Shown: positions 26,665 through 30,042 of the stretch, one piece after another
Layout: every line of letters begins with the position of its first letter
Position numbering within the stretch: position 1 is the stretch's first letter
Assembly (NCBI GenBank): GCA_001464475.1
Contig: LNDX01000001.1
Coordinates: 248,001 to 312,000, forward strand
Origin: Flavobacteriaceae bacterium Ga0077528
Lineage (GTDB): Bacteria > Bacteroidota > Bacteroidia > Flavobacteriales > Flavobacteriaceae
DNA: 64,000 bases
Reading direction: 5' to 3'
Program-made: the position numbers and the translations under genes
Notes under the pieces: generated by a model
Databases searched by the model: none
What the model saw: only the letters and a program-made list of their open reading frames with translations
Told to the model about the DNA's origin: nothing

Positions 26665-26714
26665 ATCAGTGCTCAGTGTTCAGTATTTATGTTAACTGAA
26701 CACTGAGCACTGAT
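26665..26714. repeat. 20-bp perfect palindrome built from the AACACTG heptamer
   Basis: 26665-26684 and 26695-26714 are exact reverse complements with a 10-nt loop. The arms contain the same CAGTGTT/AACACTG unit that is tandemly repeated at 26834-26940. It lies 13 bp after the S9 peptidase stop and could stop or stabilise that transcript, but no T-run follows. Confidence 0.8.
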
Positions 26715-26776: not shown

Positions 26777-26833
26777 TTTGATTTTCTTAGATAAAGCACT
26801 CAAAATGAAATTAATTACACTAACTTAGTGCTC

Positions 26834-26940
26834 AACACTGAACACTGAACACTGAACACTGAACACTGAACACTGAACACTGAACACTGAACACTGAACA
26901 CTGAACACTAACACTGAACACTGAACACTGAACACTGAAC
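26834..26940. repeat. Heptanucleotide tandem array (AACACTG)15
   Basis: Fifteen uninterrupted units of AACACTG in register, except that the eleventh (26904-26909) lacks its G and is 6 nt. The array ends one base before the stop codon of the minus-strand lipoprotein gene. The near-perfect identity of units indicates recent slippage. Confidence 0.95.
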
Positions 26941-26941
26941 C

Positions 26942-27484
26942 CTACTCCTTCTTAGGCAAAGGCGCACCAACAGCAACAGAACAAACATGTCCTTCTTGAC
27001 CGTGTGGTGGATTCATTCCTGGAGCCGTTTCTACTGGAGCAGCGATAGTTGCTGGTATGTTATTATTTGTAGTTGTAATTGTAGCACCATTTTGAGTAAC
27101 TGTACCAGGTGTTGAACCAGCCGAAGTAATAGTTGCCGATTGAGTAGAAGCTGTTGTAGTTTTTGCTGGAGCCGAATTCAATGGAGCACCAACAGCAACA
27201 TCACAACGATGTCCTGGTTGACCATGCGCCGGATTCATTCCTTTTCCAACTTTTACTGGTTGAGCCGTTGTTGGCGCTACCATGCCATTTGGTGTAGTCA
27301 TCATAGGCGCACCAGACTGTGCAGCAGCAGTTGATGGTGTTGTAGGCTCAGCAGTTGGACCTTTAAAATCATCCGAAAAGGCAGAGGTTTCTGGATTAGT
27401 TGAAACTACATTGGTTTCTTCTTCCTGCTTACAAGAAACAAATCCTAAAACCACTAAAACTATACATGATATTATCTTCTTCAT
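26942..27484 (-). CDS. Lipoprotein with two HGQ-GH-C motifs
   Basis: 180 residues from ATG 27482-27484; an upstream in-frame extension lacks a signal and crosses the promoter. Lipobox FVSC at 15-18. Two copies of a conserved 20-residue block occur, MNPAHGQPGHRCDVAVGAPL at 83-102 and MNPPHGQEGHVCSVAVGAPL at 157-176. They are separated by low-complexity Thr/Ala/Pro linkers. Each block has two His and one Cys in fixed spacing, suggesting metal or haem contact, but this is inference. The same motif is, to my knowledge, found in other flavobacterial lipoproteins of unknown function. A 7-bp tandem array starts directly at its 3' end. Confidence 0.8.
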   Translation of the reverse strand: MKKIISCIVLVVLGFVSCKQEEETNVVSTNPETSAFSDDFKGPTAEPTTPSTAAAQSGAPMMTTPNGMVAPTTAQPVKVGKGMNPAHGQPGHRCDVAVGAPLNSAPAKTTTASTQSATITSAGSTPGTVTQNGATITTTNNNIPATIAAPVETAPGMNPPHGQEGHVCSVAVGAPLPKKE

Positions 27485-28670: not shown

Positions 28671-28744
28671 CGTCACTTCGAGTGATTTTATATTTTAAAA
28701 ACGCCAGTTTTTGAAATGTAAAATTTTATCGAGAACCTATGAAA
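28671..28744 (+). repeat. REP-like element R1 (core alpha)
   Basis: Starts CGTCACTTCGAGTG and ends TATCGAGAACCTATGAAA. The inner hairpin is AAAAAC-GCCA-GTTTTT extended by imperfect AT pairs. Confidence 0.85.
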
Positions 28745-28792
28745 GCCATAAACCAAAAGTCCCAATAAATCTAAGTAATTAACCTCAACCTC

Positions 28793-28854
28793 CGTCACTT
28801 CGAGTGATTTTGTGCAATGCAATGGAACAAAATTGTATCGAGAACCTATGAAAA
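28793..28854 (+). repeat. REP-like element R2 (core beta)
   Basis: Same conserved ends as R1, but the inner stem is ATTTTGT/ACAAAAT around GCAATGCAATGGA. Confidence 0.85.
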
Positions 28855-28873
28855 ACTGAATCATTGCTACCAA

Positions 28874-28936
28874 GTTCTCGATACATTTTTTACAAAATAG
28901 CTAGTCGCAATTTTCTAAAAAACACTCGAAGTGACG
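28874..28936 (-). repeat. REP-like element R3 (core gamma)
   Basis: Inverted copy. In its own orientation: CGTCACTTCGAGTG, a gamma hairpin containing GCGACTAGC, then TATCGAGAAC. It lies 53 bp downstream of the GIY-YIG stop, in the gene's orientation. Confidence 0.85.
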
Positions 28937-28989
28937 AAAGCATAAAATAGAACGTTCTGTTGAACCAAGAACTCATGAAAACAAACTTT

Positions 28990-29277
28990 TCAAAACTTTT
29001 TCTTTGCTAAATTTGGAAGAGCATCATAATCGTCATTTATCAAAGCCTCTTTTTTAGCCCTTGACCATTTCTTAATTTGTTTTTCTTTTTCAAAAGCTAA
29101 ATTTATATCTGTAAATTCAGCATAAAAAACCAACTCCAAAGGTCGTCTAGTCGCAGGATAACAATCGGGATAAAATGCAGTATTATGCTGAAACATTCTT
29201 TGTTCAAGTTTACTCGTAACTCCTGTATAATAGGAACCATCTGAGCATTTTAATATATAAACGTAAGATTGTTGCAT
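28990..29277 (-). CDS. GIY-YIG endonuclease domain protein
   Basis: 95 residues, a free-standing GIY-YIG domain of the URI/YhbQ type. Y-V-Y at 5-7 and Y-T-G at 17-19 are the GIY and YIG positions. R27 (EQRMFQH) is the catalytic Arg, and E65 in EKEKQIKKW is the metal-binding Glu. All essential residues are present, so it should nick or cut DNA. It is embedded in eight REP-like elements and flanked on both sides by gamma elements in its own orientation. The cellular role of such proteins is not established; association with repeats suggests a mobile or repeat-maintaining enzyme (inference). Confidence 0.9.
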   Translation of the reverse strand: MQQSYVYILKCSDGSYYTGVTSKLEQRMFQHNTAFYPDCYPATRRPLELVFYAEFTDINLAFEKEKQIKKWSRAKKEALINDDYDALPNLAKKKF

Positions 29278-29281
29278 TGAA

Positions 29282-29289
29282 CAAATATA
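29282..29289 (-). promoter_or_regulatory. -7 box of the GIY-YIG gene, 4 nt from its start codon
   Basis: TATATTTG on the minus strand, a perfect match, with only TTCA between it and the ATG. The transcript would be leaderless or nearly so. The -33 region falls at the edge of element R4. Confidence 0.6.
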
Positions 29290-29305
29290 AAAAAATTGCT
29301 TCTAA

Positions 29306-29368
29306 GTTCTCGATACATTTTTTACAAAATAGCTAGTCGCAATTTTCTAAAAAACACTCGAAGTGACG
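29306..29368 (-). repeat. REP-like element R4 (core gamma)
   Basis: 63 bp, almost identical to R3 and in the same orientation. It lies 28 bp upstream of the GIY-YIG start. Confidence 0.85.
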
Positions 29369-29450
29369 ATAGCTCAAAAATAAAAATAATACAAACCAAG
29401 AAACTTCTATAACCCAACGCACAAATCCCATAAAAACTAATGCACTCTAC

Positions 29451-29524
29451 CGTCACTTCGAGTGATTTTATATTTTAAAAACGCCAGTTTTTAGAATGTA
29501 AAATTGTATCGAGAACCTATGAAA
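29451..29524 (+). repeat. REP-like element R5 (core alpha)
   Basis: Same ends and GCCA-loop hairpin as R1, with a few substitutions. Confidence 0.85.
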
Positions 29525-29572
29525 ACCATAAACAAAAAGTCCTAATAAATCGAAACATTTAGCCCCAACCTC

Positions 29573-29634
29573 CGTCACTTCGAGTGATTTTGTGCAATGG
29601 AATGGAATAAAATTGTATCGAGAACCTATAAAAA
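29573..29634 (+). repeat. REP-like element R6 (core beta)
   Basis: Same ends and beta stem as R2. It lies 122 bp after R5, the same distance as from R1 to R2. Confidence 0.85.
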
Positions 29635-29654
29635 ACTGTATTTACTGCTACCAA

Positions 29655-29717
29655 GTTCTCGATACATTTTTTAAAAAATAGCTAGTCGCAATTTTCTAAA
29701 AAACACTCGAAGTGACG
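29655..29717 (-). repeat. REP-like element R7 (core gamma)
   Basis: 63 bp, the third gamma copy, in the same orientation as R3 and R4. Confidence 0.85.
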
Positions 29718-29799
29718 ATAGCTTAAAATTTAAAATAATACAAACCAAGAAACTTCTATAACCCAACTCACAAATCCCATAAAAACTAATGCACTCTAC

Positions 29800-29873
29800 C
29801 GTCACTTCGAGTGATTTTGTATTTTAAAAACGCCAGTTTTTAGAATGTAAAATTGTATCGAGAACCTATGAAA
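29800..29873 (+). repeat. REP-like element R8 (core alpha)
   Basis: Third alpha copy; closes the array. Confidence 0.85.
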
Positions 29874-30042
29874 ATAAAACACCTCCAAAATAAACAAATT
29901 GTAAACTCCCAAACCCAAACCAACCTATTCATAACCTTTACTAAAGATTCCAACCTCATCTTTTGACAATTCATTATTTTTAGATTAATACTACTTTAAC
30001 ACGTTCGATAGAGTTTTGTAGCACAATTAAAACTACATAACT

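Follow-up and report, generated by a model that had tools for sequence, protein, structure and literature searches.

A small GIY-YIG nuclease gene paired with clade-specific REP-like repeats in Flavobacteriaceae and other bacteria

Results

The GIY-YIG gene and its repeat array

The window, that is the whole stretch of 64,000 nucleotides of Flavobacteriaceae DNA analysed here, contains an array of eight elements of the form CGTCACTTCGAGTG-core-TATCGAGAAC around one gene for a GIY-YIG protein of 95 aa (Table 1). All eight lie less than 0.6 kb from the ORF. Their cores fall into types of 66 bp (A), 53 bp (B) and 63 bp (C), and types and gene follow one another as A B C gene C A B C A. An earlier note on this DNA had described eight elements with common ends, which was confirmed: each of the eight exact CGTCACTTCGAGTG heads in the window belongs to a complete element terminating in TATCGAGAAC. 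With up to two mismatches allowed, 0.16 heads are expected in the window, and none of 100 shuffles reached eight. As two segments of the array are duplicated, the independent arrivals number fewer than eight.

Table 1. Features of the repeat array in the window.
Feature	Position	Strand	Exact CGTCACTTCGAGTG head	Description
Element A1	28671-28736	+	28671	CGTCACTTCGAGTG-core-TATCGAGAAC; good fold
Element B1	28793-28845	+	28793	Short core; weak hairpin
Element C1	28874-28936	-	28923	CGTCACTTCGAGTG-core-TATCGAGAAC; good fold
GIY-YIG nuclease gene, 95 aa	28990-29277	-		ORF; PF01541, E 1.7e-16; invariant residues; dN/dS 0.06
Element C2	29306-29368	-	29355	CGTCACTTCGAGTG-core-TATCGAGAAC; good fold
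Element A2	29451-29516	+	29451	CGTCACTTCGAGTG-core-TATCGAGAAC
Element B2	29573-29625	+	29573	CGTCACTTCGAGTG-core-TATCGAGAAC
Element C3	29655-29717	-	29704	CGTCACTTCGAGTG-core-TATCGAGAAC
Element A3	29800-29865	+	29800	CGTCACTTCGAGTG-core-TATCGAGAAC
Segment C2+A2	29297-29525			Second copy 29646-29874, 97% identical
Segment A1+B1	28671-28861			Second copy 29451-29641, 92% identical

In the window elements a stem of 3-4 bp and opposed GA steps are combined with a second hairpin, which is long. Four of them were folded as single-stranded DNA and compared with shuffles. The hairpin core that the note had ascribed to the elements was found in A1 (z -3.8), C1 (z -4.0) and C2 (z -4.0); the fold of B1 was not better than that of its shuffles (z -0.5), and the cores are of three types. 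At some distance from the array, a 7-bp unit AACACTG is repeated in tandem (26831-26943) near a perfect inverted repeat of 20 bp (26665-26714).

The protein matches PF01541 with 60.7 bits, against a curated cut-off of 22.6, and no other Pfam family, PF01797 included. Residues Y7, Y17, G19, R27, H31 and E65 are invariant in 20 aligned rows. The domain match above the cut-off and the conservation of the catalytic Tyr, Arg and Glu place the protein in the GIY-YIG superfamily. The closest solved chains are UPF0213 proteins (PDB 1ZG2 and 1YWL; profile E 1.2e-18 and 4.4e-14), followed by SLX1 (E 2.4e-4). The dN/dS ratio is 0.06 to each of two relatives and 0.04-0.17 in nine of 12 pairs, the other three being saturated; these low values indicate that the protein is kept by selection.

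Elements and enzymes elsewhere in the genome

The own genome (3.45 Mb in 52 contigs) holds 15 exact CGTCACTTCGAGTG heads. Seven of these lie outside the window (contigs C7, C15 and C17), the nearest at 11 kb from a PF01541 gene, so that the claimed confinement of the elements to the DNA around the gene is true of the window and not of the genome. Complete elements at the window gene make up eight of the 12 found genome-wide by a strict pattern, and eight of 14 by a looser one.

The genome has six PF01541 matches, two of them in long frames of 598 and 458 aa and the remaining four in small frames. Beside the three small genes outside the window, short palindromes of other sequences were seen by eye, L016 and L017 standing among repeated palindromes and L018 between one inverted pair; the pairing therefore looked general. 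RAYTs are HUH tyrosine enzymes (Y1_Tnp). A RAYT was rejected as partner of the window repeats, because the window protein matches PF01541 only and none of the three Y1_Tnp genes of the genome (RAYT-type, PF01797) has a window-type element within 1.5 kb.

Repeats beside related small GIY-YIG genes

Two sets of loci were compared. The first comprises 60 stretches, each at most 20 kb long and containing a small GIY-YIG gene, from a search of 61 genomes of the genus. Fifty-nine are the best-scoring among the matches listed whose ORF does not exceed 200 aa, with tandem copies counted as one locus and the window locus omitted; the sixtieth, L113 (the orthologue in G013), was added out of order, its flanking elements being already known. 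The second set consists of the best 80 of at least 544 loci from a scan of 84,980 species genomes. Locus L115 represents the same place as L073; it was omitted from the 79-locus, small-ORF and orientation tests and included in the 80-locus repeat coverage, the 124-locus tag count, the consensus and the protein tree. No other same-place pair was found among the loci compared.

In the 60 genus loci, 16-mers occurring more than once in the stretch, a motif-free measure, covered 23.6% of the DNA within 500 bp of the gene and 4.6% in the next 500 bp; farther than 1 kb from the gene the coverage was 0.6-3.5%. Such DNA reached 32 nt or more within 1 kb of the gene in 48 of the 60 loci; coverage near the gene was higher than far from it in 48 loci and lower in nine. 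For the second set, recurrent 16-mers within 500 bp took up 25.9% of the intergenic DNA (13.6% if all DNA is counted), compared to 0.9-10.2% of intergenic DNA beyond 1 kb. Repeats were present near the gene in 59 of these 80 loci, with near coverage exceeding far coverage in 58 and falling below it in 14 of 77.

After reading of the flanks of 13 loci, a motif was framed consisting of a GTCA tag, a short stem and opposed GA steps. GTCA was the most enriched of all 256 tags in 124 loci, with 367 sites in 111 loci versus 23.8 expected from DNA more than 2 kb away; this test counted the form N4-GA...GA-N4' together with 6-bp arms. In the subset of 79 loci that were unread when the motif was framed, the hairpin GTCA-N4-GA...GA-N4' occurred within 500 bp of the gene in 76, and GTCA again ranked first of 256 tags (222 seen, 5.0 expected). 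The elements were thus enriched near GIY-YIG genes and not evenly scattered, as the note had named for a result against its reading; scattered copies exist as well. Outside records titled Flavobacterium, 65 of 68 loci had the GTCA hairpin, the misses being L127, L176 and L185. When perfect 6-bp arms were required, GTCA was not the top tag in 61 loci (13 sites near, 38 far, ratio 5.1), a test that preceded the choice of the form N4-GA...GA-N4', and TCGA, not GTCA, came first in the 79 unread loci.

The consensus reads T/C-GTCA-NNYY-GA-G...C-GA-RRNN with a loop of 7-8 in most cases; the base before GTCA is T in 83% and C in 13% of 181 locus/stem combinations. Stem letters agree in 412 of 914 within-locus pairs, versus 5.9% of random between-locus pairs. 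Median distances from the gene to the nearest element are 72 bp (5' side) and 52 bp (3' side). The class of the window, W, has the stem CTTC or GTTC followed by GAGT...TATCGA and a second, variable hairpin; of 102 distinct W cores, 95 were more stable than the mean of 30 mononucleotide shuffles. At L058, L064 and L091 repeat and gene appear to overlap, the repeat seeming to encode the C-terminus of the protein (SSTSSD).

Overall, 111 of the 123 studied genes have a GTCA hairpin within 500 bp and 12 do not. Random small ORFs from the same stretches had one in 17% of cases on average and 26% at most (500 draws, 119 loci), which rejects plain clustering in intergenic DNA as the cause of the roughly 90% seen beside the GIY-YIG genes. 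Of a tRNA-associated GIY-YIG group in the same genus, one gene in 14 had the hairpin within this distance; the split into REP-associated and tRNA-associated genes was made by us on sequence motifs, and L099 was put in the former despite its tRNA-type neighbourhood.

A tRNA-associated GIY-YIG group

This second group of small GIY-YIG genes (~82 aa) adjoins tRNA genes, with a tRNA gene within 620 bp in 12 of 15 loci (L059, L075, L084, L087, L089, L094, L095, L099, L100, L106, L108 and L109). The GIY-YIG gene is often followed by a copy of the 3' end of the tRNA that starts at the T arm: a 22-nt copy with at most one mismatch was present within 1.5 kb downstream of eight of 14 such tRNAs and of none of 11 other tRNAs. 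By eye, a small hairpin adjoins the T arm at the junctions of L095 and L109. The group looks like a mobile element of about 350 bp at tRNA 3' ends. Tandem arrays of small GIY-YIG genes were observed at G022:C1:181321-182930 (five copies, exactly 350 bp apart) and also on G007:C24, G017:C15, G056:C1 and G004:C15.

Matching of protein clade and repeat class

A protein tree of 136 domains (94 columns, many open forks) was labelled by five repeat classes of our own making. Because repeats can encode protein ends, the domains were cut after the conserved region. A label was given to 120 proteins; the 16 without an element class were excluded from the change count, and four of these (L060, L069, L072 and L081) have, by eye, variant repeats outside the patterns. 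The class changes 13 times on the tree, compared to a mean of 60 and never fewer than 54 in 200 shuffles. For the genus alone (33 genes), six changes were counted versus 19 after shuffling. Exchange of labels among paralogues of one genome holds the species constant, and none of 200 such trials, involving 14 genes of seven genomes, gave six changes or fewer. The repeat type likewise follows the enzyme in RAYTs.

In the clade of the window protein, all 15 rows have W elements (L073 and L115 being the same place); four further W rows fall elsewhere in the tree. An orthologue of at least 72% identity was found in ten of the 61 genomes. All ten genomes hold W elements, each orthologue having some no more than 500 bp away, so that orthologues of this clade devoid of repeats, which the note had named as a finding against its reading, were not encountered. 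Among the 51 genomes lacking a close orthologue, 15 still hold W elements (40 copies in G017, 21 in G059 and 16 in G032); the difference from ten of ten has P = 3.6e-5, uncorrected for phylogeny. Orphan element populations are therefore common, like those of REPs without RAYTs.

Two of the genomes deserve mention. The window-clade gene of G009 (L229, 8056-8340) has an in-frame TAG and its genome a single W-pattern match, perhaps a dying system. At G032:C8:105195-106206, in a genome lacking a close orthologue of the window gene, two W types alternate on opposite strands in eight copies, each type recurring about every 260 bp.

CGTC REPs in Pseudomonadota

REPs are common bacterial repeats. In the part of Di Nocera et al. 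2013 (PMC3733652) consulted, they are divided into GTAG-tagged REPs, linked with RAYTs, and CGTC-tagged REPs, which 'apparently lack a dedicated transposase' and are described as not associated with transposase genes, the mobilising agent being left open. The same part gives CGTC REPs stems of 8-9 bp and loops of 4-5, and equates CGTC-1 of Neisseria with dRS3, and CGTC-1 and CGTC-4 of R. conorii with RPE-6 and RPE-4.

Another small GIY-YIG protein of the own genome, L081, flanked by CGTCTTTCCCGCGCAGGCGGGAATCCA, was used as query, and relatives were found in 33 records of a plasmid collection, mostly from Pseudomonadota, of which 16 were examined. Perfect or near-perfect CGTC/TGTC hairpins of 8-9 bp were present within 500 bp of the gene in 12 of the 16 loci, several with the tail CCA; stem and loop agree in these 12 with the published CGTC form. 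In 11 loci they lie within 100 bp on both sides of the gene (Aeromonas, three Shinella, Neisseria gonorrhoeae, S. meliloti, two other rhizobia, Azospirillum, Novosphingobium and Sphingobium), and in nine of these 11 the nearest tags, judged by tag position, are outward on both sides. The density of CGTC hairpins was 44 in 16 kb near the genes and 76 in 143 kb far from them. No strict-form CGTC hairpin was found in L212, L216 and L219, and the Planktothrix repeat is of another form by eye. The Neisseria repeats are presumably dRS3, judging by the dRS3 sequence and the equation of CGTC-1 with dRS3 cited above.

By record title, GIY-YIG/REP loci occur in eight phyla, mostly Bacteroidota and Pseudomonadota; the other phyla have one to three loci apiece, and some of these loci come from metagenome bins. 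Planktothrix agardhii has its GIY-YIG gene (L205, 5974-6258) inside a DISARM defence cluster, with the mmeI-like gene on one side and drmA on the other.

Mobility and neighbourhoods

In A. lipoferum the module is located between sufB and sufC (sufB-[REPs-gene-REPs]-sufC), with two REP pairs accompanying the gene; sufB and sufC are adjacent without it in four Azospirillum (A. ramasamyi, A. oryzae, B510 and A. thermophilum). That the module is probably a gain in A. lipoferum rests on these several relatives without it. At this single empty site the spacer has diverged, leaving target duplication and exact ends unreadable. Strain differences were looked for in solitary elements of Sinorhizobium medicae; most of the matching records carry the element at the place in question, and none offered a clean empty site. 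L074 versus L114 was rejected as a Flavobacterium empty site, as the gene order differs.

Among the ten window-clade loci, one of 45 pairs (L077 and L112) shares a neighbourhood; in three further pairs, one or two genes are common to both loci but differently placed. Of the 82 loci with elements to the left and right of the gene, 39 have both flanking tags directed outward, 25% being the value for random orientation; farther from the gene, element pairs were seen in either orientation.

Discussion

The pairing of gene and repeats, its clade specificity, the presence or absence of the module at one site, the varied locations of most orthologues and the purifying selection on the protein are observed here. 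From these sequence comparisons it is probable that the GIY-YIG gene and the repeats form one unit, with a dedicated nuclease recognising the repeats of its own clade, in a RAYT-like role for GTCA/CGTC REPs. In the note's proposal the RAYT beside REP-like repeats is replaced by a GIY-YIG nuclease, and pairing, tag, controls and co-variation all favour this reading. The results suggest that the GIY-YIG enzyme is the missing partner of a widespread class of bacterial repeats.

Specific pairing is the best-supported step of a possible mechanism; the next, which we infer, is recognition of tag and hairpin. Two features would mark the repeats of its own clade for the protein: the unpaired tag GTCA, in most cases as TGTCA or CGTCA, and the short hairpin next to it. 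Upon extrusion of the hairpin, the nuclease would cut the DNA at tag and hairpin, and repair of the cut from another copy would multiply and convert the repeats. A gene between two repeats could in this way be copied into new sites. Spread by cutting and repair is proposed because segmental duplications, near-identical copies and the position of the gene between repeats fit it. GIY-YIG enzymes hydrolyse DNA without strand joining, so that transposition would need host repair. The result would be a pair like RAYT and REP (a REPtron) that serves the CGTC/GTCA superfamily and relies on GIY-YIG hydrolysis. Involvement of both tag and palindrome is described for TnpA-REP in the part of PMC8266576 consulted.

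Several observations weigh against a single unit: the orphan elements in 15 of 51 genomes, the 12 of 123 loci without a GTCA hairpin, the partial origin of the window array by segmental duplication, the outward tags, which exceed the random share but follow no rule, and the perfect-arm test, in which GTCA was not first. The orphans in particular would suit an arrangement in which the GIY-YIG gene alone is mobile, in the manner of a homing endonuclease, and the REPs, spread by another agent, are mere landing sites. The tRNA-associated group, lying between a tRNA gene and a copy of its 3' end as if a target had been entered and duplicated, also speaks for this explanation. We regard it as possible but rather doubtful, since the repeat class closely tracks the protein clade and elements are present in every genome with a close orthologue, versus 15 of 51 without; in addition, the consulted part of PMC3733652 reports no enzyme gene associated with CGTC REPs.

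The remaining explanations require no recognition of the repeats by the nuclease. Regulation of the gene by the repeats, as terminators or mRNA hairpins spread by gene conversion while the nuclease acts elsewhere, agrees with the short distances of the nearest elements on both sides of the gene and with the good folding of the long window-type cores. It would require neither a conserved tag nor many-copy arrays, orthologues in unrelated places or scattered solitary copies, and is judged very unlikely. Hardly any weight is given to a gathering of small mobile genes and REPs in dispensable intergenic DNA without functional link. REPs are indeed intergenic and scattered, and nearly half of the CGTCACTTCGAGTG heads of the own genome (seven of 15) lie away from any PF01541 gene, but the low frequency of hairpins beside random small ORFs and in the tRNA-associated group, and the match of repeat class and protein within genomes, argue against it.

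A wider reading, to which we assign about even chances, is that small GIY-YIG nucleases, chemically unrelated to RAYTs, are the missing dedicated enzymes of the whole GTCA/CGTC REP superfamily, dRS3 included, and so provide REPs with a second mobility system. The tRNA-end mini-elements of roughly 350 bp, with their repeat of about 30 bp of the tRNA and their tandem amplification, would be a variant of it, the common principle being one hairpin-recognising gene with a duplicated hairpin target.

For CGTC REPs, a specific candidate enzyme of about 95 aa is thus put forward, with the tag GTCA and a clade-specific hairpin as predicted motif, and the matching enzyme/repeat pairs from many clades make the mobilisation of these REPs a question of binding and cutting. 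If the proposal is true, a role would be found for many genes annotated only as 'GIY-YIG nuclease family protein', and hairpin-specific nucleases that differ in specificity would be open to study. No open-access paper on a link between GIY-YIG and REPs was found by title or abstract among the matches listed, subscription journals and preprints being outside the scope of this search, and priority for the link is not proven. RepRanger 2025 (PMC12306157) contains no word beginning with GIY, nuclease, RAYT or transposase.

Among known systems, the RAYT/TnpA-REP pairs (REPtrons) are built alike, according to the parts of PMC3733652 and PMC8266576 consulted: short palindromes that carry an unpaired tag of four bases stand on both sides of a small nuclease gene. 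The present loci share with them an enzyme gene flanked by its own repeats, the repeat type following the clade; they differ in that the window protein matches GIY-YIG only and the tag is GTCA, not GTAG. Free-standing homing endonucleases are similar in being nuclease genes present at one site and absent there in relatives, but no intron, intein or interrupted conserved gene was found in the loci read, and the genes are flanked by multi-copy hairpin repeats. With UPF0213 proteins and SLX1 the window protein has the domain in common; SLX1 is deposited as a structure-specific endonuclease, the UPF0213 entries as 'hypothetical'. The CGTC REP superfamily, described in the consulted part of PMC3733652 as a CGTC/TGTC tag followed by a hairpin, intergenic and often in dimers, resembles most of the Pseudomonadota loci. 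The window elements also begin with CGTC but lack the 8-9 bp stem, the loop of 4-5 and the tail CCA, having instead a short stem, GA.GA and a long core. Whereas CGTC REPs are presented in that part without an enzyme gene, a GIY-YIG gene lies between such repeats in 11 of the 16 loci examined here.
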